Shown piece after piece: positions 10,632 to 64,000 of a DNA stretch of 64,000 bases. The number at the start of each line of letters is the position of its first letter. The first letter of the stretch is position 1. The stretch lies in contig NC_079879.1 in assembly GCF_029227915.1 (NCBI RefSeq), positions 10,230,001 through 10,294,000 on the forward strand, written 5' to 3'. Both the position numbers and the translations under genes were made by a program. Below the pieces are notes generated by a model. The model did no database searches, had not been told where the DNA came from, and saw only the letters and a program-made list of their open reading frames with translations. This DNA comes from Hydractinia symbiolongicarpus (Eukaryota > Cnidaria > Hydrozoa > Anthoathecata > Hydractiniidae).

Positions 10632-10850
10632 GACGATATGGCTCAGTGGATTAGAGCCTGTGGCGCATCAAATGCTACAATCCCGGTTTTCACGGGGTTA
10701 ATTCGTGAAAAAGTAACATTGGTAGCGGAATCATCAATTGCTTTTTTTTCTGTTACTTTCAAGGTGTGTGCATTTCAAGTGCAATTTGTATCGTATTGCA
10801 TTCAAAATGCTAGAAGTTTGTCATACCGAATACCGAAGATACATTAACGA
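10632..10850 (+). repeat. Possible tRNA-derived SINE
   Basis: The stretch from 10635 (GGCTCAGTGGATTAGAGC) looks like a tRNA D-arm with an A box. It is followed about 50 bases on by a degenerate B-box-like segment (GGGGTTAATTCG). It does not fold as a complete tRNA by eye. Most likely an old tRNA-headed SINE downstream of the BEL relic. Confidence 0.4.
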
Positions 10851-11542
10851 AGAAGTAATATATACAACATGATTGTTAACGACGCCACCCCGAGACGATT
10901 GAAATCTATGGTATTCATCGAATGTGTGAAAAGATATTATCTAAAGAACAGGCCTTGATATTAATTTAGATTTCGAAGTCAGCAAATTTTAGTACCAGCT
11001 TAATCCTATTAGCACAACTTAGTTTAGTTAAATAGGATCATTTTGTATTTTATGGACACGTGATTAATCCGATCTTCCGATTTTTCATGTTTTACCGCAA
11101 CATCGGATAAAACAGAAATTCCGGTCATTTTTTTGAAACTTTTATATTACTGGGTTGTAGTTAACAATTTTTTAAGGATATGAAAGTGAAAAGACGCCAA
11201 AGTTAAAACACTCTTTTGTTGGCGAGTGTATGACAAACTGATGCTCTTATATGCTTGGCGTGGTTCAACTTCTCTAAATGTTGTCATTATAATGCAACAT
11301 CACAGTTGGTATTATAATTTGCTGCATGAAATGTTGTAACAGTTATTGTTATAAATATAATTAGCGTCGTTTGATACGTAGGTTGTTAACATTCAAATTT
11401 TACAAATGGAGATAAAAATAGTACTTGAAGTAATCAGATGGAATTTGGTCTTTTATTGACTATAGAAGAAATCGCGTCGACTTATGAAACAACAAAAAGG
11501 GTCGAAAGATAACACATATTTCACAGATAATATCTTTAAGAC
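10851..11542. other. Intergenic stretch, no gene seen
   Basis: AT-rich DNA between the SINE-like repeat and the left edge of the avidin duplication. I see no coding exon, RNA gene or clear repeat. Confidence 0.5.
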
Positions 11543-11580
11543 AAAAAAGTTAATACAGGAAAAAAATTTTCATTTAAATT

Positions 11581-12253
11581 TTAGAACTTGCATGTTTGAT
11601 CAGGTTTCACTCTATGAAAGTTGTCTTGTCCAATATTAGTTGATGCCCATATGGCGTTCTCCTTTTTAGCTGGCGCCGTCAAGGTCCATGTAGTGAGTAT
11701 GACTTGTTTTCCAGCTTTTAAACGATACTGTCCTGACCATGCCGCTGTAGAAGTGGAAATTTTGTCTTTGCTCTAGAATTAGAAAAATTGAAATTTATGT
11801 GTCTTTTACAGCGTTGGTGCGATTTAGCAAAAATTCACTCATATTTGTCTATGAACGGCACAACCAAAATTAATTTAATAACAAATGTATTTAGTGTATC
11901 TACCGTGTAGGTCACAACCCATCCAATTGAGGTTGGTGTACCAAGCCCAACGAGTCCCACTAAATCAAATGTCGGGCGTTTCAAAGGATAGCGACTCACT
12001 GCTGTACAATACTTCCCGACCAAATTTCTTCCTTTTTGTTTAATAACCATTGTTGATCCGAGTTCATTCTTCCATGTTCCTGCAATCGCTGGTGCGTCTA
12101 TAATGTCAACTATAGTTATAAAACAAATTTTCTGAATCTTGGTTTTATTCTTTAATTTATAATAAATTTCTTACTGAGTGTGTTGTTTGCTTTCTGTCCA
12201 AGCGCACACACGCTTAAAACAAGAACAAGAAAGATGTTTAACTTGGACATCAT
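11581..12253 (-). CDS. Avidin-family biotin-binding protein, copy A
   Basis: Exons (minus strand): 12175-12253, 11904-12097, 11581-11772; 154 aa. Residues 1 to about 20 are a signal peptide (hydrophobic LNIFLVLVLSVCALG), so the protein should be secreted. The rest is one avidin/streptavidin beta-barrel, which binds biotin as a tetramer or dimer. Seen against known biotin contacts: N37 and S41 (WKNELGS), Y56 and T58 (GKYCTAV), S99, W103 (AAWSGQY), W120 (LTTW), W133 (NAIWAST) and D141 (GQDNF). Two contacts differ: Tyr90 replaces the Trp equivalent to streptavidin W79, and Ala101 stands where T90 would be. C57 and C152 are the only cysteines in the barrel. A TATA box lies 79 bases upstream. Its translation is identical to copy B. 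Biotin affinity is unproven. Confidence 0.9.
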
Positions 12254-12331
12254 GTAGATTTTCTGTTTTCTTCAGATCAACTTTCTAAGTAAATGACGGT
12301 AAAGAATTTACTCTAAAGACAATCCGACCCG

Positions 12332-12339
12332 TATTTATA
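12332..12339 (-). promoter_or_regulatory. TATA box of avidin gene A
   Basis: TATAAATA on the minus strand, 79 bases upstream of the ATG. This suits a transcription start about 30 bases downstream and a 5' UTR of about 50 bases. The same box is at 15824-15831 before gene B. Confidence 0.65.
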
Positions 12340-14470
12340 CTCCCTGGCATACTTAAGCAAGCGAAAAAATAATAAAAATAAATTTTTGTTTTTCGAAAGT
12401 AAACAAAAGCTGTGATATTTTTAATTATTAACTCAAGAGGAAATTACTCAGAACTTTAGTATATTTTTATCACCTAGGAAGTTTTAGTTTCTCTTTCATA
12501 TTTTCTTATTTGTGTAAACCATTTACGGTAAACTAACATTTTTAAAGTTTCTGATCAAGGCTAACCTGCCTGACCAAGATTGACTTGCCTTAATCGTCCT
12601 TAATCACTTAAATTCAGAACGATTCGGTCAACGTCGCTTGTGACTTTTGTTATCTTTTTTTACCTTAAGAAAATGATCTGTAAAAACGCGATTAATTAAA
12701 TGACTAATCGATAAACCCCTAAAAAATCCACTTAGGCAGAAGAACAATGGATAAAATACAAGTTTTTTAGCAATTTTGATGACGTCAGCATACATATACA
12801 GAAAGAAAAAAACTTGTTTACCTGTAGCCTCTTAAAATTCTGATCAAAGCAATGTATAGAATCCAGTGATATGGACCAAAAAATAAGGAGATATAGGGGT
12901 TTAATAATTTTGCCTACGTCAGCAAAGATCTGTCAATGTACCAATTTTTTTAACAAAATTAGTTTGACAGTTACTCCTGTTACATAGAGATCGAAACAGT
13001 GATCAAGAAAATGTAAAGGATCATATGCTTTTGACGAATGTCTTTAGTGTTTAAATGGGTTTTGATGACGTCATAAACCCGTCCATTCCGAAACAGATTG
13101 GTGGTGACTCAGGTGTGAGAAACTTACCCAATTCGGTCGCATTTTGCTGGTCACAGAGGGAAAGATTTCGTATTAATATTTTCTTTGTGCTTTGATGGCA
13201 TTTTTAAACCGTTATATCACCTTAACCTGTGTTTTTACCTACAAAAAATGTGTGCACATTGACAAGAATCTGCAAAGTTTCATAAACTTTTGTAAACATC
13301 AACAATACACCGGCAGCTTCTATTTTTTTATTATTATTATTAAGAATGATTTGTAACATCTTTTCATCGACGGTCTCTATTTTCTATCAAAAAGACGTAG
13401 AGCAAACAATTCTGTATTTTTTCATTATTTATTCTACAATCTCTGACAAAATAAAAAAGACAAATTTGCAATTTTCGAAGTTCGTAGCTACAGGTAGTTG
13501 TTATATAGGCCACATCTACCCTTCTTGAGATACACGCAATTTGAACTTGTCAACTTGTTATTGTTTATAGCAGGCTTTGGACTTAGAATCACTTACCCTA
13601 ACAAACATTATTAAACTATAAAGTTTTTACCAGAGTAAGATTTGACCAAGCTTGGTAAGCAACTCACAAATAAGTTAAAATGGCCTCCGAAGCGATTAGA
13701 CACATTGTTCAACTTAAGCTCGGGGTTTCCGCTGGGTCATTCGTTTGCGTCTAAGCTTTTGTTTGAGAGATCAACTCGAAGAAGAAAGCTTAGTTAACTA
13801 GGCTAGCTTTCTACTAGAGAAATTAAATTTTATTTGCACAGGGAGAGAGTACATAAAAATGGTTTTAGTATAGTCTTAGGTTTGCGAAAGTAACACTTTT
13901 GCTTTCTGTTCAGCTTAAAAGAGATCTAAAATCCTCCTCAGGAGGATCTTAAAAAAAACCTACGAAACAAATCTTGTTTAATGTTTTTATGGCCCTTAAT
14001 ATGCTCGAACTATATTTGGTACATATTTATTTACTTTAGAAATAAAGTTTTGTAGCTTTAGGAGACCAGCAAAATAAGGGTGGGCTTCTTAGTTTCATCT
14101 TTGTTGAATAAAGAAGAAAATTTTGTTAAATAATTAAGGAATAATTATTGGAAGCTTTACCATTACAATGTTTTTCACAATAGGCATTTTTGTACCTATT
14201 TTGGAAATATGAGTTTGCTGTCTGCAATAGAAGTCTCTGGTTGCATCTACCGATATGTCATGAATTGGAAAGGGCTTCTATAAAAATATTATATAGAACC
14301 CGAAGTTGGTACTTTTGATGTAACTGACTGGTAACTAGCTAGCATGAAAAATCCCTTTTTTGGCAGCGGTGGAAAACGTCGAAGAAATATACTTTTTAAG
14401 CATATTTTATTTAAAAAAATAACAAAAATAGACAAGAATACAATAGACAAAGAAAACAATGTGATTTGAT
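12340..14470. other. Spacer between avidin gene A and orphan exon C
   Basis: No coding sequence recognised. It contains dispersed-repeat segments: about 12720-13110 (shared with 43480-43620 and 49340-49700) and about 13735-13805 (shared, inverted, with 63835-63905). The whole spacer recurs in unit 2 at 15832-18140 with scattered substitutions and three visible indels. Confidence 0.7.
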
Positions 14471-14662
14471 CTAAAACTTGCAGGTGACGTCTGACTGTAT
14501 TTTGTGAAAGTTATCCTTTCCAATTTTAGTTGATGCCCAAATAGCATTCTCATCAGCAGGTGCATTAGTTAACACCCAAGTGGTCAGGATAACAGGTTTA
14601 CCATTTTTGATGCGATATTGTCCAGACCAACCAGTGGTAGAGAACCAAGATTGGTGCTTACC
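14471..14662 (-). pseudogene. Orphan avidin last exon (copy C), 5' exons missing
   Basis: A clean exon: AG acceptor at its 5' edge, 63 codons, stop TAG. It encodes the second half of an avidin barrel: GWSGQYRIKNGKPVILTTW, then NAIWASTKIGKDNF, ending TCKF. It keeps W103-, W120-, W133- and D141-equivalents. It matches exon 3 of gene D. The duplication break in intron 2 (about 15035) removed exons 1 and 2, so alone it has no start. The frame is intact and the acceptor is phase 0, so gene B upstream on the same strand could splice into it. Confidence 0.85.
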
Positions 14663-15072
14663 CTGTAATGTAAAAATTTTAAAAGTAATTAATTTTTAGA
14701 TAATAACTTAGAATGCATTTTTTAAGCAACGTAAGATGGTTATTTTTGTTCATATCTACACGTTTTCAAAACCTTATTGGAATAAATGCTTTTTTAAAGA
14801 TTGTTCTCACAAGCAATGATTTACAGCCTTTTCATTTTAGCCTTGCATTAAAGCGGAATGCCGGATTTTTGGTTAATCAAGCTGTGATAATTCTTGCTGA
14901 AGTCAGCGTGACCCATTTTTTTAAATTCATTTGATCTTTCTGGCCGCTATCGCAGAAATTGCGATTAGCAAATTTGCACCATTTCTTACCCACCCTAAAC
15001 TGCCAAAGTAGAACTTTACAACTACAAAAAAAGAAAAAAAGTTAATACAGGCAAAAAATTTTCATTTAAATT

Positions 15073-15745
15073 TTAGAACTTGCATGTTTGATCAGGTTTC
15101 ACTCTATGAAAGTTGTCTTGTCCAATATTAGTTGATGCCCATATGGCATTCTCCTTCTTAGCTGGCGCCGTCAAGGTCCATGTAGTGAGTATGACTTGTT
15201 TTCCAGCTTTTAAACGATACTGTCCTGACCATGCCGCTGTAGAAGTGGAAATTTTGTCTTTGCTCTAGAATTAGAAAAATTGAAATTTATGTGTCTTTTA
15301 CAGCGTTGGTGCGATTTAGCAAAAATTCACTCATATTTGTCTATGAACGGCACAACCAAAATTAATTTAATAACAAATGTATTTAGTGTATCTACCGTGT
15401 AGGTCACAACCCATCCAATTGAGGTTGGTGTACCAAGCCCAACGAGTCCCACTAAATCAAATGTCGGGCGTTTCAAAGGATAGCGACTCACTGCTGTACA
15501 ATACTTCCCGACCAAATTTCTTCCTTTTTGTTTAATAACCATTGTTGATCCGAGTTCATTCTTCCATGTTCCTGCAATCGCTGGTGCGTCTATAATGTCA
15601 ACTATAGTTATAAAACAAATTTTCTGAATCTTGGTTTTATTCTTTAATTTATAATAAATTTCTTACTGAGTGTGTTGTTTGCTTTCTGTCCAAGCGCACA
15701 CACGCTTAAAACAAGAACAAGAAAGATGTTTAACTTGGACATCAT
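15073..15745 (-). CDS. Avidin-family biotin-binding protein, copy B
   Basis: Exons: 15667-15745, 15396-15589, 15073-15264; 154 aa. It encodes the same protein as copy A. The exon differences I can see are synonymous (for example around 15146 and 15157). Signal peptide, single avidin barrel, Tyr90 in place of the usual Trp, and Ala101. The promoter TATA box is at 15824-15831. In transcription order it lies between D and orphan exon C, so a read-through transcript could use exon C as an alternative last exon. Identical proteins plus near-identical introns point to a young duplication or to gene conversion. Confidence 0.9.
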
Positions 15746-15823
15746 GTAGATTTTCTGTTTTCTTCAGATCAACTTTCTAAGTAAATGACGGTAAAGAATT
15801 TACTCTAAAGACAATCCGACCCG

Positions 15824-15831
15824 TATTTATA
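15824..15831 (-). promoter_or_regulatory. TATA box of avidin gene B
   Basis: TATAAATA on the minus strand, 79 bases upstream of the ATG of copy B; same position as in copy A. Confidence 0.65.
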
Positions 15832-18140
15832 CTCCCTGGCATACTTAAGCAAGCGAAAAAAATAATAAAAATAAATTTTTGTTTTTCGAAAGTAAACAAA
15901 AGCTGTGATATTTTTAATTATTAACTCAAGAGGAAATTACTCAGAACTTTAGTATATTTTTATCACCTAGGAAGTTTTAGTTTCTCTTTCATATTTTCTT
16001 ACTTGTGTAAACCATTTACGGTAAACTAACATTTTTAAAGTTCCTGATCAAGGCTAACCTGCCTGACCAAGATTGACTTGCCTTACTCGTTCTTAATCAC
16101 TTAAATTCAGAACGATTCGGTCAACGTCGCTTGTGACTTTTGTTATCTTTTTTTACCTTAAGAAAATGATCTGTAAAAACGCGATTAATTAAATGACTAA
16201 TCGATAAACCCCTAAAAAATCCACTTAGGCAGAAGAACAATGGATAAAATACAAGTTTTTTAGCAATTTTGATGACGTCAGCATGCACATACAGAAAGAA
16301 AAAAACTTGTTTACCTGTAGCCTCTTAAAATTCTGATCAAAGCAATGTATAGAATCCAGTGATCTGGACCAAAAAATAAGGAGATATAGGGGTTTAATAA
16401 TTTTGCTTACGTCAGCAAAGATCTGTCAATGTACCAATTATTTAACAAAATTAGTTTGACAGTTACTCCTGTTACATAGAGATCGAAACAGTGATCAAGA
16501 AAATGTAAAGGATCATATGCTTTTGACGAATGCCTTTAGTGTTTAAATGGGTTTTGATGACGTCATAAACCCGTCCATTCCGAAACAGATTGGTGGTGAC
16601 TCAGGTGTGAGAAACTTACCCAATTCGGTCGCATTTTGCTGGTCACAGAGGGAAAGATTTCGTATTAATATTTTCTTTGTGCTTTGATGGCATTTTTAAA
16701 CCGTTATATCACCTTAACCTGTGTTTTTACCTACAAAAAATGTGTGCACATTGACAAGAATCTGCAAAGTTTCATAAACTTTTGTAAACATCAACAATAC
16801 ACCGGCAGCTTCTATTTTTTTATTATTATTATTAAGAATGATTTGTAACATCTTTTCATCGACGGTCTCTATTTTTCTATCAAAAAGACGTAAAGCAAAC
16901 AATTCTGTATTTTTTCATTATTTATTCTACAATCTCTGACAAAATAAAAAAGACAAATTTGCAATTTTCGAAGTTCGTAGCTACAGGTAGTTGTTATATA
17001 GGCCACATCTACCTTTTCTTGAGATACACGCAATTGGAACTTGTCAACTTGTTATTGTTTATAGCGGACTTTGGACTTAGTATCTCAGGTCATTCAGTTA
17101 GATCTCAACTCTTAAAATGTTTTAATTGTTGCTGACTTACATTACGCTGGGTCTCAAACGATTTTTCTGCAGCCAAAATCTGACCGCGCTTTTTGATTGG
17201 CTAATTCTATTGTTCTTTGCTCACGTGGTCTATGTTTGGGAAAGCTCTTTTCATCCGAATATTCCAGCGAGTAGTTTCACTTACCCTAACAAACATTATT
17301 AAACTATAAAGTTTTTACCAGAGTAAGATTTGACCAAGCTTGGTAAGCAACTCACAAATAAGTTAAAATGGCCTCCGAAGCGATTAGACACATTGTTCAA
17401 CTTAAGCTCGGGGTTTCCGCTGGGTCATTCGTTTGCGTCTAAGCTTTTGTTTGAGAGATCAACTCGAAGAAGAAAGCTTAGTTAACTAGGCTAGCTTTCT
17501 ACAAGAGAAAATAAATTTTGTTTGCACAGGGAGAGAGTACATAAAAATGGTTTTAGTATAGTCTTAGGTTTGCGAAAGTAACACTTTTGCTTTCTGTTCA
17601 GCTTAAAAGAGATCTAAAATCCTCCTCAGGAGGATCTTAAAAAAATCTACGAAACAAATCTTGTTTAATGTTTTTATGGCCCTTAATATGCTCGAACTAT
17701 ATTTGGTACATATTTATTTACTTCAGAAATAAAGTTTTGTAGCTTTAGGAGACCAGCAAAATAAGGGTGGGCTTCTTAGTTTCATCTTTGTTGAATAAAG
17801 AAGAAAATTTTGTTAAATAATTAAGGAAAGAATATTAAACATATTGGAAGCTTTACCATTACAATGTTTTTCACAATAGGCATTTTTGTACCTATTTTGG
17901 AAATATGAGTTTGCTGTCTGCAATATAAGTCTCTGGTTGCATCTACTGACATGTCATGAATTGGAAAGGGCTTCTATGGTACTTTTGATGTAACTGACTG
18001 GTAACTAGCTAGCATGAAAAATCCCTTTTTTGGCAGCGGTGGAAAACGTCGCAGAAATATACTTTTTAAGCATATTTTATTTAAAATAATAACAAAAATA
18101 GACAAGAATACAATAGACAAAGAAAACAATGTGATTTGAT
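15832..18140. other. Spacer between avidin genes D and B
   Basis: Unit 2 copy of the 12340-14470 spacer. It has the same dispersed-repeat segments, plus the block 17081-17275 absent from unit 1. That block contains TTTTTGATTGGCTAAT, a CCAAT-like sequence. No open frame of note. Confidence 0.65.
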
Positions 18141-19263
18141 CTAAAACTTGCAGGTGACGTCTGACTGTATTTTGTGAAAGTTATCCTTTCCAATTTTAGT
18201 TGATGCCCAAATAGCATTCTCATCAGCAGGTGCATTAGTTAACACCCAAGTGGTCAGGATAACAGGTTTACCATTTTTGATGCGATATTGTCCAGACCAA
18301 CCAGTGGTAGAGAACCAAGATTGGTGCTTACCCTGTAATGTAAAAATTTTAAAAGTAATTAATTTTATAGATAATAACTTAGAATGCATTTTTTAAGCAA
18401 CGTAAGATGGTTATTTTTGTCCATATCTACACGTTTTTAAAACCTTATTGGAATAAATGCTCTTTTAAAGATTGTTCTCACAAGCAATGATTTACAGCCT
18501 TTTCATTTTAGCCTTGCATTAAAGCGGAATGCCGGATTTTTGGTTAATCAAGCTGTGATAATTCTTGCTGAAGTCAGCGTGACCCATTTTTTCAAATTCA
18601 TTTGATCTTTCTGGCCGCTATCGCAGAAATTGCGATTAGCAAATTTGCACCGTTTCTTACCCACCCTACACTGCCAAAGTAGAACTTTACAACTACAAAA
18701 AAAGAAACTGTCATTTTGCAGAAAAAATATTCTTACAATTGTAAATATGAAGTTGTCTAATGCTTGCTTAATTTTATTCAACTAATTTTCGTAATTTATG
18801 TAAGAAAGAAAAAGAAAATAAGAAATTATAGTTTTTGAAAATAAACTGAAGTGTGCAACAAAGAAGTTCTTCAATGGGGACAAAAAATCAAGACATTATG
18901 TTACAGATTGCAAAACTTACCGCAAAAGTCACAACCCATCCAATTGATGTTGGTGTACCAAGCCCTACGAGTCCCACCAAATCAAATGTCGGGCGTTTTA
19001 AAGGAGAGCGACTCACTGCCGTACAATACTTTCCAACCAAGTTTCTTCCTTTTTGTGTTATAACCATTGTTGAGCCCAGTTGGTTTTTCCATGTCCCTGC
19101 AATAGTTGGAAGACCTAAAAACAAACACTGAGTAACATTCCTGGGTAATAATTTTTATTTTTTAAATTATAATAAATTTCTTACTTAGTGTGTTGTTCTT
19201 TGCTTTTTGTCCAAGCACACATACGCTTAAAAGGAAAATACCAAAGATGCTGAACTTTGACAT
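18141..19263 (-). CDS. Avidin-family biotin-binding protein, copy D
   Basis: Exons: 19185-19263, 18921-19114, 18141-18332; 154 aa, the same exon lengths and phases as A and B. Signal peptide MSKFSIFGIFLLSVCVLG, then one avidin barrel. Biotin-site residues seen: N37, S41, Y56, T58, S99, T101, W103, W120, W133 and D141. Position 90 (streptavidin W79) is Phe. D differs from A/B most in the loop and strand at the start of exon 3 (GKHQSWFSTTG against SKDKISTSTAA), where D keeps the Thr that A/B lose. It is the 5'-most gene and the probable source of orphan exon C. Family call is firm; binding strength unknown. Confidence 0.9.
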
Positions 19264-21429: not shown

Positions 21430-24400
21430 CTATCTTGGGTCCAATTGAACAAGTGCGGGGAACGTCCGCATTCGTAACCGTTCAACCTCAGCTCGTAACA
21501 TGCTAATTTCGGATGCTTGTGCTTTCGCAAGATCGACAAGTTTACGTCTTGTTATAATGTCCTGCATTCGTTTCGATGCACCGTTATCACTGCGATTATC
21601 AGCTAAAAAAAAAAAAAAAATCAACAACAATATTAGATTAGTACTTCCAACTAAGATAATCGAGTATAAACAAGGATTCTTAAACCAAACAGGGCGAGTG
21701 TTAGCAACATGTTGTATATTTGTATCTTGGGTTAGCGAAGCAACATGTATATATACACACGAACCTACCTGTAAATAATTAGTTATAACCAAAAATATAG
21801 TACGACAACAAACAAACCAATTTTTATAACAAAGCAGAGCTTGGGATTAAGTGAGTTAAGTGCCTTTCTTCGTGATAAAAAATTCAATCATTTTAAAAGA
21901 AGATGCCACCAGTCTCGTATCTCATCTCCATTACGCTGACTTCAGTACTACGACAGTGCTACGAACAAGACAGGTCAAAGTTCACCGTACACCTACCAGT
22001 GACGTCATGAATGTTTTTTCTTTCAGCAACAGATAACGCCATTTTTTCCAAATCAATGTCCAACTGTTCATTTTCTTCGACCTTTGACACAATTTGGTGT
22101 CGTAACTTGCGGATTATTCGTTTTCTATCCTGTACGTTGCGACCATGCATCTATAAAAAGTGAGAAGACAGTGAGACAGATTATTATACTCGCCCGTCAT
22201 GATCAGAGCTCTGATCGGGGTGAAACATTTTCTGTTGAGAATGAAATACGGATGTGCTATGATAAATATTCACCTATATGTATACACACCATCCGGATAA
22301 ACTATCTGAGTTCATCACTAAGATATTACCGCACGTAGTGTAGTGGGTTCGTCTGCGGCTCCCAGTTCTGGGGACCGCGGATCGAATCCCGCTCACTGCT
22401 TGGCAGTAAGTTAGTGATGAACAAAGTAGTTCTTCTTCAATATGACTGTAATACTTGATGTATTTTTTCTGCGCCAAACCTTTAAAGTTAATACCTAACC
22501 TTATTACACATATCCAACGTTCTTTCTAACGTCGCGATCTCTTGTTGTTTACTTTGTCGCCGGTCAGTCTCACCAAGATAAACTTGCAATTCCTTGGTCA
22601 CACGCAACATTTGTAAATCATGTGCAGTCGTTTGATAATCTTCAGCACGCATGAACATTTCCTTGAGTTCCCAAGCTAGTTGGTGTATACCCTTTCGAAA
22701 GTCTTTACTTTCTCTCATACTGGCTAATTTCATTTCACCCAATGTCTAATAAAAAACAAAATATATACAAATCAGAGAGATTTTGTGATGACAATAAATC
22801 GCATGCACTGCAAAAAAAACTTGCTAAAACACAGACTGTGAAGCATAGATGCACAAAATACGATATGCACAGTCTAGGAGGAAGAAATTTGTATTTCTTT
22901 CTCCAAGATACAGCAAAGAAAAATAAGAATGTGATTAAACTACCTTAATGGTACTATTTAAGTCCTCAACAGCAGATCTATGGATCAGCACGGAATCCGT
23001 GTAACTGGGCACGAAATCACACGATCCTACTTCCACTTGACCTTGCTTCAGTAACAACTGGACTTCGAGATTCATGTTAAACCTGACTCTTTCTTCACGA
23101 AGCCTACACACAAGGAAAAAAAGATATATTAATCTAACATAGCAAGAGATAAAAAAGGCTATTGTTTTGAATATGCACTTGAATTCAGAAAATTATATTT
23201 TCAAATTTTCAAGGACGTCCGCCCTTAGAGTCTGCGGGGAAATGCCTCGTTTTTTACGCCACAGCAGGCCTTCCAATTTTTCAGTCATGCTGACCGGTGT
23301 AAAGTATAGGAGTCGTACTGTCGAGTATTTAGGATCTAACATGCAGTAAGGAAAGCTGTAAAAAAACCCGTTTTTTAATAATTCCTGCATACTTTAGATT
23401 TGTTTAGCTCGTCATGAGTTTTTTTAAATAAATAAAAATGCAAATTTTATCGTTTAAGAGTATCAATACACAGAAGAATTAAAAATTTTAAACAAGCCGA
23501 AGGTGTTGAGAAGACTACACCAGATATCGTATTTATATGAGAATTACAATTTTGTTGCAGCCAGCTACATGATAGAAAATCATAAAAAAGTAGTGCAGGG
23601 AGAAAAAACTAGCCTGGTTAACAAACTTTACAGATAAAAAATGTTCGCAAATGCATTGTGTGAAAGAATGTCTCTAGATGTTTTGAGGTAGCTAGTCCTA
23701 AGTGTGAAAATCAAATTATATGTAACGAATCCTTCTGTACTTTATTTCGCGAGAGCGGAGTCCATGTTAGTTTTTACGTAAAAAAATATGGATAAAAAGA
23801 AACCAAAAAGTAGTGCTAACTAGGACTGGACGGCTGTAATAAGCAAATTTTAACTATTTGTTTGAATATCATAAAATTAAGCAACAAGCAGCACATTTCA
23901 AGGTTTCAAAGCCAAGACAAAAACCCTTGAACTGGGCAATCCAGACAACTAGTTTGATTTTTAGATTTAGTTATCTCATACTGCAATCTTACACCTAAAA
24001 TTGAATCTTATTTCTATAAAAGCACACAATTTCACTCCAAATACGTCGGTCTAATTTTAGGAGGTTACTTGTTAACATTAAAAACAACAGTAAAAACAAA
24101 TAAATAAAAAACCTCTGTATATCTTCGAAGGTCTTTTCAATGGTCATTTTCAAGTCTTCGTCGCGATCAATTTGATGCTGTAGATAGTCATTCATGTCTG
24201 CCAGAACAAGGGCTTTAGCTTTTAACTAAATGGTAAAGTGAAGAGAAGATATACCTAACAATCAACCACACAAACAAAAGACACATTTTTCATGGTATCA
24301 TAGTCGTGGAAAACAGGTCGTAATTCCTATGTAAAAAATAAACGGGTTGGGAAGACAAATTACAACTGACAGGTTTATTTGACAAAAGCTGGATAACATA

Positions 24401-27400: not shown

Positions 27401-30400
27401 ATGGAAAATCATAACAAACAAAACTGCGCATGCTCAGATACAATTCGCCGTCGAATTCGCTTCGTGAAAATCCCCCTTAAAGTCTTAAAGACGTCTAAAG
27501 GCTTTTTAAAGGTTCGATGTTTTTTTATATTTAAACCTAAATTGTTTTGAATCCATTCGAAATATAAAAGTGTATAGACTAAATGAAGATAAAAAACAGA
27601 TTACATTAAAGTAATACCTTATTCCATGAAATTACCGAATTAACGCAAATAAAAATAACGGTCATGAATTTAACTCGGTTCAATAAAATTATTTTGTAAA
27701 AGGCATTTAATTAACGCGGTTCAGATAGATTCATTTTCCAAAATGCATTTAATGAAATCGAATTAGGGAATATGCAATATCATACGAAGCAAAAATTACA
27801 GCAAGAGTAGAATCAACGGTGGTGACGCGGTCTTCTCTATTACAAGGTGGTTTGGAAATCCAAATAAATGTTTTTGTTGTTTGGAAAGACAATGTTAAAA
27901 TTTTTTGAAGAAAATGTGCTTTCAGTTAATTTTCCACTTGGATCAGAGTATGATGATGATACGAAAGCTATTTTAAAAAAGATCGCTGAAAAAGAACACC
28001 GTTGAGCTATCTCCGATGGAGGAAATAAAAGAAAATTTGTAAAAAAAAATGTATTTTTATGTTTTTTAGGCTTTTATATCTTATAAAAAAGTCACAAAAT
28101 TAACATTATTTTAATTAACGAGTCATGAAATTAACAGCCTTTAAATTAACAATGCATTTAATTAACGGTCATTAAATTAATGCGAATTTTGAAAAACCGC
28201 GTTAATTTCATGACTCGTTAATTTTATTGAATAAGATACACAGTGATACAAAAATTCTTCAATAATAACGATTATTTTATTTCCTTCTCATATCACATGC
28301 CTACCTGAGTAGTTTTAATCTCGTACTCTTTAGCCAACTTTTGTTCTTCTTCATTCCATTCATTATCCGGTTTAACATTCATAAATTCTGGTCGTTCTAT
28401 CTCTTGCTTGAGTTCGTCTTCCAAATTAGTTTCCAATCTTCCAGCCATCATCATTTCTAACGCTCTACCACGTGCATTATCCGCCATTTCAGCAAGTCGT
28501 CTTTCTATTAGAAAAATATGTAATTTTAAAACATTAGTCGTTAGCCCGTGGAAAAATCCACGGATTCGCCCGTCGCAGCTAAGCTACCATTTTGCGTGAC
28601 AGACAGACGGACGGACACGGACGGACGGACGGACAGACGTATACGGGCATTATAATATAATTTTTTTTTCCTTTAGGGCTACATATATTCTTTTCTTTTA
28701 ACGTGAAGAAGATTTTCAGATTTAGCCTCTAATCTCCAACCTCTCTTGACGAGATATTTTAATCATTGAAATTGTTGAATCAGAAGGCGGTTAATTGGCA
28801 GGGGCGCACGAAAATAATTTCACTTTAATTCCGACCTGGCGCTAAAAGGTCATTTGCTATGGTTAGCCTGAAAAAGAAGTACTAAAACCAAAAACTATTA
28901 CACTATCTTCAAATTACTGTGATTTTTTTGATGCATACCGAAAACAAACGCGTAAAGTTGTGCTTTGTCACACGCGTTTATTATTCCCCGCGTAAATTTA
29001 AAAAGGCGTAAAAATAATAACCGAGTTAATTCTATGAATAACAGCATCAAAAAAACCAAACAAACATGTCGTAGAATGGATGTGAAAAATGTTGGAGGAC
29101 TTACCTTCTTCCAAGCGCGCCAACTCATCTAACCGTTTTTGTTCTTCTTCACTGATGTATTTCTCAACCAAGATCTCCTCCTCATTTACAACTAGCAGCA
29201 TTTCGGGTTGTTCACTGTGATCTAAATGAGCGTCTATCAACTCCTCCTGCAAATGCATGTCTCGTAAAATCTTCTTGATACGTGTATTGCGTTCGTTGAT
29301 CTTGCGAATCTCCTGTATCTTCGCATTGTAAACCTCTTCGAATGTTTCGTTAAATGCTTCTTTAATTCGAATTATACAATCCTAAAAAGTAGAACATCAC
29401 AACATAAAATTTCAATCTGCAGCGAGTAAACGTGATATTCAAAACATTTTTTTTAAACTAAAATAGCGAGTCAAAAGATGAGTGAATGAGAGAAAAGGTA
29501 CTGTAGAGGGGAAATAAAAACAAGTTAATAAATCTTGTGGTTTTTATCGAAAGGAGAAAGTTAGGGTTTTCTCACTCCAGACAGACAGAGTCATTGTAGA
29601 GATTATTGCAAAAATGAAATTCATACCTTTAAGAGCACGATTTGATTTCTCTTCTGGTTCTTTGTATGTAATTCAAACTGAGTTTGCAGCAAATCATTAT
29701 AGCCGCCATACAGAAAACCAAGACTTCCATACGTGGCCACACTCTCTTTCCTGAGATATTTGTCCACTTCTGTAAGTTCTTCATCGTAGTCGATCTCCCT
29801 TTTCTCTAGAAATAAAACAATTGAGATTTATAATTTTTTAAATAAAAAATTCAGCGCGAAATTTTAGAAAGAAATCTAAAATAAAGTCTAACATCGATTT
29901 CTAACACAAGAGCTATAGCCATTAAAATTAAAGCCGATTTTCATCTAATAAAAAACTGAAAACATTGTGGGGTAAATAAAGGCATCAATGATGGCGTTTG
30001 ACTTGTTTTTATTTTTATCACCTTCATATTTTGTCGTCAGAAGGTTTTTTCCTTCTTGTCTTTAGGAAAATTAAACGATGCCGAAGGTTTCAGCAGAAAG
30101 ATGAAAAAAATATAGAAAATTTCAGTAGGCGGTAAATCGGGGTAATGCATTGTTTTTAGTTAGTTTTTGTTTTGTGTTTGATCTCAATAACGTTAGATCA
30201 CTCAGATTGACTCGTGTTCCCAAATCTCTAAAAACTATACAAAGTAATTTTTCTCTCTTTTTTATTCCCAAATAGCAGCCACAACAATAGCGTTTCTTTT
30301 CTTTTTCGCAGTTTTTACAACAAAATTATTTATTATTTTCTAGTTTCAAAAGATTTCGGTGGTGTTGACCACAGAAAATAAAATCTAGGACGAGATTCGA

Positions 30401-49850: not shown

Positions 49851-51185
49851 TATCACCATCATCATTCTCAGCTTAACGTCCAATTTCCATGCTAGCGTGT
49901 TAGATCTAAACTTAACTTCCTCTATATCAAGTCTCTTCTTACAACCTCCTGCCAAGTCTTTCTCAATCTGCCTCTGGGCTTTGCCCCAGGAACTATCAAG
50001 TCTCTACACTTTCTTACTCAATTATCCTTTTCCATTCTTTCCAAGTGGCCCAGCCAATTCAATCTTCTTATCTGGATAACATCTTTAATTCTATGGATAC
50101 TTAGCCTGCTTCTTAGCTCATCTGAACTCTTTCTGTCTCTCAGACTGGCGTTACACATCCACCTAACCATCCTCATATCATTCCTTTCTAAACGGTCAAG
50201 ATCTTCCTGCTTCACTGCCCATGTCTCACTACCGTACAACATAACACTTCTTACACAGGCCTCATACAACCTACCTTTTAACTCAATTGAGAAGACTCTG
50301 CTAGTCAACAAAGGAAGTAACTCTCTGAACTTTTTCCAAGCAGAACCTATCCTGTAAATAACACTTCTTCTAACACCTCCTTTACTGCCCAACATATCAC
50401 CTAAGTAACAGAAGTTCTCAACTATCTACAACGAGCCACTGTTGTTCATCATTGAAGCTGGATATAATTCATTCTCTATAATCTCACCTTTGCAACGCTT
50501 ACATACAAACTGAAAGTCAGCTCTTAACCTTCCACCAATACTACTGCACTTCTTATGTACCCAATGCTTGCAAGTCTGACAAAAAATACTACCAACTACC
50601 AACTTGAGTTACTACCAACCCCTTTCCTACAAAATCCACAAGGCCACTTTCCAACTACAAGGTCACACTTGGCTGCAATGCTACTAATCATGACTTTAGA
50701 CTTTGCTGTGTTCACCCTTAGCCCTTTATCTTCTAGTCCTTTCTTCCACTTCTCAAACTTTTCAACTAATTCTTCCATCGACTCTGCTATGAGAACCAAA
50801 TCATCTCCATACAATAACTCCCATAGACAACCTGTTCTGAACTCCATTGACAGCGCTTCTAAGACTAGAACAAACAAAAAAGGACTAAGTAGAGAACCCT
50901 GATGTACACCAACATTTCCACTAAACTCATCACTAAGTAAATCCTTAATCCTGACACGACTTCTAGCATTGCTTTACATAGACTGTACCATCGTAACTAG
51001 CCACTCATCCACACCTAATTTTCTCATAGCTTACCAAATAACTTTATGTGGCACTCTATCAAAATCTTTCTCTAAATCTGCCAAAACAAAATAGAGATTC
51101 TTTCTCTTTCCTAAATACTTTTCCTGTAGCTGTCTGAGTAAAAATCTTGCATCTGTAGTGCCACACCCTGAAACAAAACAAAATT
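49851..51185 (-). pseudogene. RTE-like LINE fragment, reverse transcriptase
   Basis: Minus-strand fragments in order: GCGTTDARFLLRQLQEKYLG, ADLEKDFDRVPHKVIW (RT catalytic Asp block), VRIKDLLSDEFSGNVGVHQG, LYGDDLVLIAESMEELVEKF (the catalytic YxDD box, here YGDD), LRVNTAKSKVM, and at the C-terminus LYGSETWAVKQEDLDRLE with RRLNWLGHLERM. Frameshifts and stops (for example at 51033 and 50980) break it. The 3' end carries a short (ATC)n tail at 49851-49866, typical of RTE-type LINEs. The 5' half with the endonuclease is absent: 5' truncated. Confidence 0.8.
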
Positions 51186-59655: not shown

Positions 59656-61757
59656 CTAATCGACTTCTTCAACTGTTGGTCCCTGTTGTGTTCCAGCACT
59701 ACCATTTCCAGATTGATGAAGTTTTGTCATAATCGGCTGACAGATTTGTTCCAATTCGGACTTCTTCGATTCATATTCGTATTTTTCTGCCTGTTGGTTT
59801 GAATCCAACCAGTTGATTACTTCCTCACATTTTTTGATAATAACTTCTTTGTCGTCTTCAGATAATTTATCTTTTACGTTGGCATCGTTCACTGTATTCT
59901 TCATTTGATAAGCGTAACTTTCCAAGTTGTTTTTTCCTTCGACTTTTTCTTTTTGCTTGTCGTCTTCGTCTTTGTATTTTTCAGCTTCCGCCACCATACG
60001 ATCTACTTCAGCTTGAGATAATCGTCCTTTATCGTTTTTAATCGTTATTTTCGAGTCTTTCCCAGTACTTTTATCTTTGGCGATGACATTTAAGATGCCA
60101 TTTGCGTCAACATCAAACGTCACTTCAATCTGCGGAACGCCCCTTGGTGCAGGTGGAATGCCAGAAAGTTCGAATCTTCCGAGCAAGTGATTATCATTAG
60201 TCATTGCACGTTCTCCTTCGTAAACTTGAATGGAAACACCTGGCTGATTATCCGAGTATGTGGTGAACACTTGAGTTTTCTTTGTTGGAATTGTTGTGTT
60301 TCGTTTGATAATGGGAGTCATCACACCTCCCGCAGTTTCGATACCAAGAGACAGTGGAGCCACATCGAGTAACAGTAAGTCTTGTACTGCTTCATTTTTA
60401 TCTCCCTTTAAGATAGCGGCTTGAATGGCAGCTCCGTAAGCAACAGCTTCGTCTGGATTTACTGAGTTGCAGAGCTCTTTTCCATTAAAGAAATTAATTA
60501 ACAATTCTTTAACTTTTGGTATTCGAGTGGAACCTCCAACTAAGACGATTTCATCGATTTGTGATTTTTGAAGTTTTGCGTCACTCAAAGCTTTTTGTAC
60601 AGGTTCCAGTGTCTTTTTAAACAAGTCTCCATTGATTTCTTCAAACTTGGCTTTTGTGATAGACGTAAAGAAATCGATACCTTCATACAAGGAATCGATT
60701 TCAATATTTGCTTGAGTGGACGACGACAGTGTTCTTTTCGCTCTTTCGCAAGCCGTTCGTAACCGTCTTACTGCTCGTTTATTTCCACTGATATCTTTCT
60801 TATGCTTGCGTTGAAACTCCTAAAATCATAAAAAAATTCGTTCACAATATTTCCATTTTAGTTTGAAAATAAGAGGATAGAGAATTAAATTGTTTTTTTT
60901 AACACTTACCTTAATAAAATAATTAACGAGATTATTATCAAAATCTTCGCCACCAAGATGCGTGTCTCCTGCTGTTGATTTCACTTCGAAAATTCCTCCA
61001 TCGATACTCAATATTGAAACATCAAATGTTCCTCCGCCCAAATCAAATATTAAGACATGTTGTTCTTTGTTATTTGAAGTTTTATCCAAACCGTAAGCAA
61101 TAGCTGCTGCTGTGGGTTCATTGATAACTCGAAGAACGTTCAATCCTGCAATAACTCCAGCGTCTTTCGTTGCTTGTCTTTGAGAGTCGTTAAAATAAGC
61201 TGGTACTGTTATGACAGCCTCTGTAACTTTATCTCCAAGAAAGTTTTCCGCAGTTTCTTTCATCTTTGTTAATACCATAGAGGAAATTTCTTCAGGGAAA
61301 AATTCTTTGTCTTCATTCTTATATTGGACCTAAAATTTGATACCATACCGCACTTTATTACTATCGAAACGGAAAGTTGCATTTTTGGTTATAAATGTTG
61401 TTTGTTAAATGTAGAAAAATCTTAGACATTTGCTTTTCTTTTTAACCTTACCTTTATTTTTGGCTTTCCATTTCGATTAACAACTGCAAATGGCCAGTGC
61501 TTCTTGTCTTGTTGAACAGTCGAGTCATCAAACTTTCGACCTATCAATCTTTTAGCGTCAAATACTGTGTTTGAGGGATTCATTGCTACTTGATTTTTTG
61601 CCGCGTCTCCGATTAGTCGTTCATTCTCGTTGAATGCTACATAACTCGGTGTGGTCCGATTACCAGAATCGTTGGCAATTATTTCAACTTTTCCGTGTTG
61701 AAAAACTCCAACGCAAGAGTAAGTCGTACCAAGATCTATACCAATTGCCTTCGACAT
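59656..61757 (-). CDS. HSP70: Cytosolic heat shock protein 70
   Basis: Exons: 61452-61757, 60910-61329, 59656-60819; 629 aa. ATP-dependent chaperone of cytosol and nucleus. Seen: the ATP-binding signature [13 protein letters not shown] near residue 5, second signature [14 protein letters not shown], third signature [13 protein letters not shown], linker and substrate-binding beta domain ([20 protein letters not shown]), helical lid, and C-terminal EEVD, which docks TPR co-chaperones and marks the cytosolic type. The GGMP-rich linker of constitutive HSC70s is missing and the C-terminus is short ([10 protein letters not shown]). The start ATG gives [12 protein letters not shown], the usual N-terminus. 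Two introns break the ATPase domain, while many heat-inducible HSP70 genes are intronless. Upstream heat-shock elements suggest heat induction. Confidence 0.95.
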
Positions 61758-63541: not shown

Positions 63542-64000
63542 TAAAGGAGATTGAGAAGTACTGTTCAAAATGTGGGATGAAAGGGAAAGCGATTATTAAA
63601 ACAATGGACAGGGGACGAAAATTTCAAGTATACACTTCCAACGATTACTTGCTCCAAGCAACGTATTTTGGAAACTTAAATCAATCAATCTTAGTTTTTC
63701 CATATCCGGTTGTAGAGTCTACTCAGACACTCAGGAATACAACACTCAATCCGTTCCCCCAATCAGTAGCCTTGGTCGCGTGTTTGATATACCAGCGTAA
63801 ATCATATTTCTCAAAACACACACATAAGCTCTTACCTAGTTAACTAAGCTTTCTTCCAGGATATCTTATTCAGTTTCTCTCGCACGAAAGCTTAGACGCA
63901 ACCAAATGTCTCGGCAAATCCCTAAAATTCACATCCACCTCATAGCAAACCTCAAATTACAATCATTCTTACATAAAACAAAAGATTTCTCGATATTGAC
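63542..64000. other. Window end, dispersed repeat and unassigned frame
   Basis: An 88-codon plus-strand frame (63577-63843) resembles nothing I know and has no support as a gene. About 63835-63905 is an inverted copy of a segment in both avidin spacers (13735-13805 and 17430-17495), sharing GCGTCTAAGCTTT and GAAAGCTTAGTTAACTAGG. Confidence 0.45.

Follow-up and report, generated by a model that had tools for sequence, protein, structure and literature searches.

Three avidin genes (A, B and C) and one orphan exon are clustered on the minus strand of a 64,000-nucleotide (nt) window of the Hydractinia symbiolongicarpus genome (GCF_029227915.1, contig NC_079879.1, forward-strand positions 10,230,001 to 10,294,000), the window being the whole stretch of DNA analyzed. 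Each gene, composed of three exons of 79, 194 and 192 nt separated by GT-AG introns in phases 1 and 0, encodes 154 amino acids (aa). These exon models were proposed by a first-pass annotation made from the sequence alone, and they hold at its positions; its count of three genes plus an orphan exon needs qualification. A and B differ at 2 of 465 nt, both synonymous, and encode the same protein, so that the cluster yields two distinct proteins, A/B being one gene present twice, and the orphan exon lies within a duplicated unit.

A protein search identifies the A/B protein as an exact copy of P0001 and the C protein as an exact copy of P0002, both from Hydractinia symbiolongicarpus and named 'streptavidin-V2-like' by NCBI, which agrees with the annotation's call of an invertebrate genome and specifies a hydrozoan. 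The proteins are already catalogued by NCBI, and the annotation of these entries, as seen, is silent on the duplication, orphan exon and poly(A) signal loss described below. Exon 2 of A is preceded by two in-frame acceptors, 12 nt apart (12098-12110, minus strand), as is exon 2 of B (15590-15602); the upstream acceptor, if used, would give four extra residues. The label 'isoform X1' carried by P0001 implies a second isoform, and our guess is that it uses the acceptor 12 nt before A exon 2.

Searches against the Pfam Avidin profile (PF01382) give 86.5 bits for A/B and 86.3 bits for C, against a cut-off of 24 (E about 2e-24), and 42.1 bits for the orphan exon alone. With scores far over the cut-off and exact database matches, the family assignment made by the first-pass annotation is not due to chance. 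Predicted monomer models of A/B and C are eight-stranded avidin barrels, with a fish avidin as the best fold match, tied within one Z unit, and the proteins probably assemble as other avidins do. Exon 1 codes for a hydrophobic, signal-like N-terminus (judged by eye), in line with the secreted type already suggested, and both proteins are predicted to be secreted. Exon 2 encodes strands 1-5, and exon 3 encodes strands 6-8 together with the inter-subunit Trp.

Table 1. Coordinates of the avidin genes, duplicated unit and poly(A) signals in the window
Feature	Position	Strand	Description
Avidin gene A	11581..12253	-	exons 12175-12253, 11904-12097, 11581-11772; 154 aa (P0001)
Avidin gene B	15073..15745	-	exons 15667-15745, 15396-15589, 15073-15264; same protein as A
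Avidin gene C	18141..19263	-	exons 19185-19263, 18921-19114, 18141-18332; 154 aa (P0002)
Orphan exon	14471..14662	-	192 nt; copy of C exon 3, downstream of B; intact acceptor, open frame, stop
Duplicated unit, copy 1	11543..15036		gene A with upstream region; orphan exon; part of C intron 2
Duplicated unit, copy 2	15031..18707		gene B with upstream region; exon 3 and part of intron 2 of C
Duplication junction	15027..15041		within an oligo-A run
Segment unique to copy 2	17085..17278		~194 nt; ends approximate
AATAAA	11452..11457	-	first past A's stop (124 nt); outside the duplicated unit
AATAAA	14406..14411	-	60 nt past orphan exon's stop; first past B's stop (662 nt)
AATAAA	18076..18081	-	first past C's stop (60 nt)

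A probable tandem duplication and the 3' end of gene B

Self-comparison of the window reveals one duplicated unit in two collinear copies with one junction, the arrangement of a single tandem duplication; 11538-15036 aligns with 15031-18707 in blocks 98.8% and 96.3% identical (gaps counted). The unit ends 38 nt beyond A's stop on the left and within C intron 2 on the right. From 11581 to 15030, the copies differ by 37 substitutions over 3,422 aligned sites, a divergence of 1.08%. The cluster most likely arose, judging from this arrangement, from an older A/C pair through one roughly 3.5-kb tandem duplication. Such an event, joined in the oligo-A run, would have copied gene A, its upstream region, the last exon of C and part of C intron 2, creating gene B and leaving the orphan exon; one event suffices for both. 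The recent duplication proposed by the first-pass annotation is supported. A short inverted match (74%, E 7e-7) links the unit, at 13738-13802 and 17426-17490, to the window end at 63835-63908.

The orphan exon shows 0 differences from C exon 3 over 192 nt, and the 12 bases before its acceptor are also the same; lying inside the duplicated unit, it is no independent relic. Such identity would arise by chance with a probability of 0.09-0.11, so we do not claim that the exon is under selection.

A scan for poly(A) signals, covering AATAAA and ATTAAA only, reveals a different 3' context for each gene (Table 1). Gene B is without A's signal because the breakpoint excluded it from the unit, and since the next AATAAA available to B lies behind the orphan exon, the B transcript is predicted to include that exon. 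B transcripts would likely extend to this signal, taking the orphan exon as 3' untranslated region. The orphan exon is in phase 0, allowing in-frame joining to B exon 2, and some B transcripts may splice exon 2 to the orphan acceptor to give a predicted A/C hybrid subunit, which reads open over 154 aa and shares 84% identity with P0001 and 89.6% with P0002. Gene B would then be an exon-choice avidin gene, in which its own and the captured C-type last exons compete, yielding A-type and A/C-hybrid subunits and recombining the biotin site; we consider this a long shot.

The A/C pair, its relatives and the surrounding window

The A and C proteins are 75% identical (MAFFT alignment), with the identity distributed unevenly over the exons: 82% in exon 1, 86% in exon 2 and 64% in exon 3. 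At synonymous sites, exon 2 has a divergence of 0.51 and exon 3 is saturated (differences at 18 of 48.8 versus 32.3 of 40.8 sites; p 1e-4, from rounded counts); intron 2 is 131 nt long in A but 588 nt in C. A and C are older paralogues and, from these values, look mosaic in build, with close exons 1-2 and an old exon 3. The synonymous contrast favours gene conversion between A and C, although replacement of exon 3 would appear alike. Two comparisons speak against a long conversion tract: A/C intron 1, at 0.68, barely exceeds the highest of 20 shuffled controls (0.65), and the upstream 100 nt do not exceed theirs (0.53 versus 0.57). A possible decayed avidin exon 3 with stops is present on the plus strand at 10828-10959 (tblastn E 6.7e-4 within the window); a Hydractinia profile scores it at 12.7 bits, where the highest of 20 shuffles reached 7.1, but a broad avidin profile gives only 6.1 bits (E 0.35).

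Streptavidin of Streptomyces and tamavidin 2 of a fungus have the domain, the barrel and most of the site residues compared in common with the Hydractinia proteins, which differ from both in the loop after strand 3 and at W79. Among vertebrates, zebavidin (PDB 4bj8) is described as encoded by a single gene of four exons (PMC3811995), in contrast to the three-exon Hydractinia cluster. The chicken genes (AVD, AVRs and BBP-A) are likewise clustered paralogues, for which high recombination is reported (PMC1082904), but they encode egg proteins with four exons, and A/B is ~30% identical to chicken avidin. The scarcity of invertebrate avidins noted by the first-pass annotation agrees with PMC8033661, where sea urchin and lancelet are listed among known eukaryotic avidins.

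Two protein searches were considered through their best 120 of 224 and best 120 of 517 matches. Named rows among the matches listed comprise Hydractinia, bacteria (mostly Streptomyces and relatives), fungi and synthetic constructs in the former, and Hydractinia, birds, turtles and synthetic constructs in the latter. A tree of 51 rows (42 of 238 proteins and 9 of 28 loci), in which Hydractinia is the only invertebrate, places Hydractinia beside the vertebrate rows in its best form, with weak support (72/82); long branches meet in the tree, and three alternative groupings are not rejected (p-AU, from the approximately unbiased test, 0.468, 0.293 and 0.475).

Upstream of the cluster and on the same strand lie pieces of a CFAP43-type gene (21430-21846 and 28998-29381; PF25828). 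At higher positions on the minus strand, a reverse transcriptase fragment at 50596-50973 (PF00078) is likely part of a retroelement, and an HSP70 match occupies 59656-60819 (PF00012), with open reading frames up to 61832 resembling, by eye, the first part of HSP70.

Biotin binding, expression and competing explanations

The biotin site was compared at 18 streptavidin positions. Of these, 11 are kept in A/B and 12 in C, with equivalents of N23, L25, S27, Y43, V47, S88, W92, W108, L110, W120 and D128 kept in both proteins. Both proteins are predicted to bind biotin.

An Avidin-like transcript was published in Hydractinia in 2025, in epithelial cells at the tentacle bases (PMC11876637). This marker of the Conodipine+/Avidin+ cells of the Hydractinia cell atlas comes from the same species and family and may be one of the cluster genes; Conodipine+ cells are reported there as rare in sexual polyps (PMC11876637). 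Location at the tentacle bases fits a defensive role on the outside better than one in eggs, and speaks against the eggs invoked by the first-pass annotation. The proteins would capture free biotin outside epithelial cells, most likely defending the polyp surface by antimicrobial or antinutritive action; antimicrobial biotin sequestration is plausible.

Overall, we assign a probability of roughly 0.65 to a small avidin-family cluster with two proteins, both predicted biotin binders of the secreted type, formed by one tandem duplication with exon capture and serving surface defence. Several observations count against it. Zebrafish without zebavidin developed normally and, in the assays reported, resisted one Streptococcus like wild type (PMC13425791). 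The A/C hybrid is not among the matches listed in the protein search (2 of 28 candidates); with 84% and 89.6% identity it would be expected to form its own 90% cluster, 89.6% being borderline, and the cluster of P0002 has one member. In the binding site, W79 of streptavidin is replaced by Y or F, T90 by A in A/B, and an alignment gap covers residues 48-50, so affinity could be low. The same changes at W79, T90 (A/B) and the 48-50 loop, together with one at A86, would suit an avidin fold with a structural role or another ligand, an argument made about the avidin-like domain in fibropellin of sea urchins, the subject of a title cited in PMC3811995; given the eleven site equivalents kept in both proteins, this has a small chance of being right. 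The copy divergence of 1.08% is also near the heterozygosity estimated for the species, 1.33% (PMC11067881), and 6.5% of BUSCO genes are reported as duplicated in HSymV2.0 (PMC10411563), as might be seen if two alleles of one A-to-C region had been stacked head to tail, leaving only A (or B) and C real and no orphan exon. The published chromosome assembly, however, was built from HiFi reads with an N50 of 13.2 kb (PMC10411563); the array, at 7,165 bp, is shorter, so single reads should span it, and its join is seamless in a window without N. We regard such an artefact as unlikely.

Two further explanations concern the source and the purpose of the genes. Horizontal transfer from a bacterium or fungus within Cnidaria, with introns gained later, draws on an alignment (A3) in which the A/B sequence comes closer to rows from bacteria and metagenomes (up to 43%) than to those from birds and turtles (26-35%), and on two groupings that are not rejected, Hydractinia with a nine-row bacterial set (p-AU 0.475) or with metagenome rows (p-AU 0.468). 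The weak placement with vertebrate rows in the best tree and the top fold match to a fish avidin, though tied, point the other way, as does an intron parting the signal exon from the domain, an arrangement also suggested for zebavidin by exon lengths of 87/211/120/42 (PMC3811995); transfer appears rather improbable. The first-pass annotation had viewed the tandem copies as selected for dosage, which would raise the amount of avidin in secretions such as mucus, or in eggs. A and B do encode the same protein, each with its upstream region inside the unit, but a single duplication accounts for both the third gene and the extra exon, B is without A's poly(A) region, and the tentacle-base Avidin+ cells and the reported rarity of Conodipine+ cells in sexual polyps (PMC11876637) also count against this view. 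Nothing tested indicates selection for dosage, and we consider that view very unlikely.

The cluster, probably formed by tandem duplication with exon capture, offers a readable example of how one such event can rewire the 3' end of a gene and capture an exon. If B does choose between exons, then together with the A/C mosaic an early-branching animal would have, in this cluster, a small system for shuffling the exons of a biotin trap that it secretes externally. Hydractinia is experimentally tractable, and an avidin transcript is already the marker of one particular type of epithelial cell there, so that binding or knock-out experiments could probe the role of avidins outside eggs.
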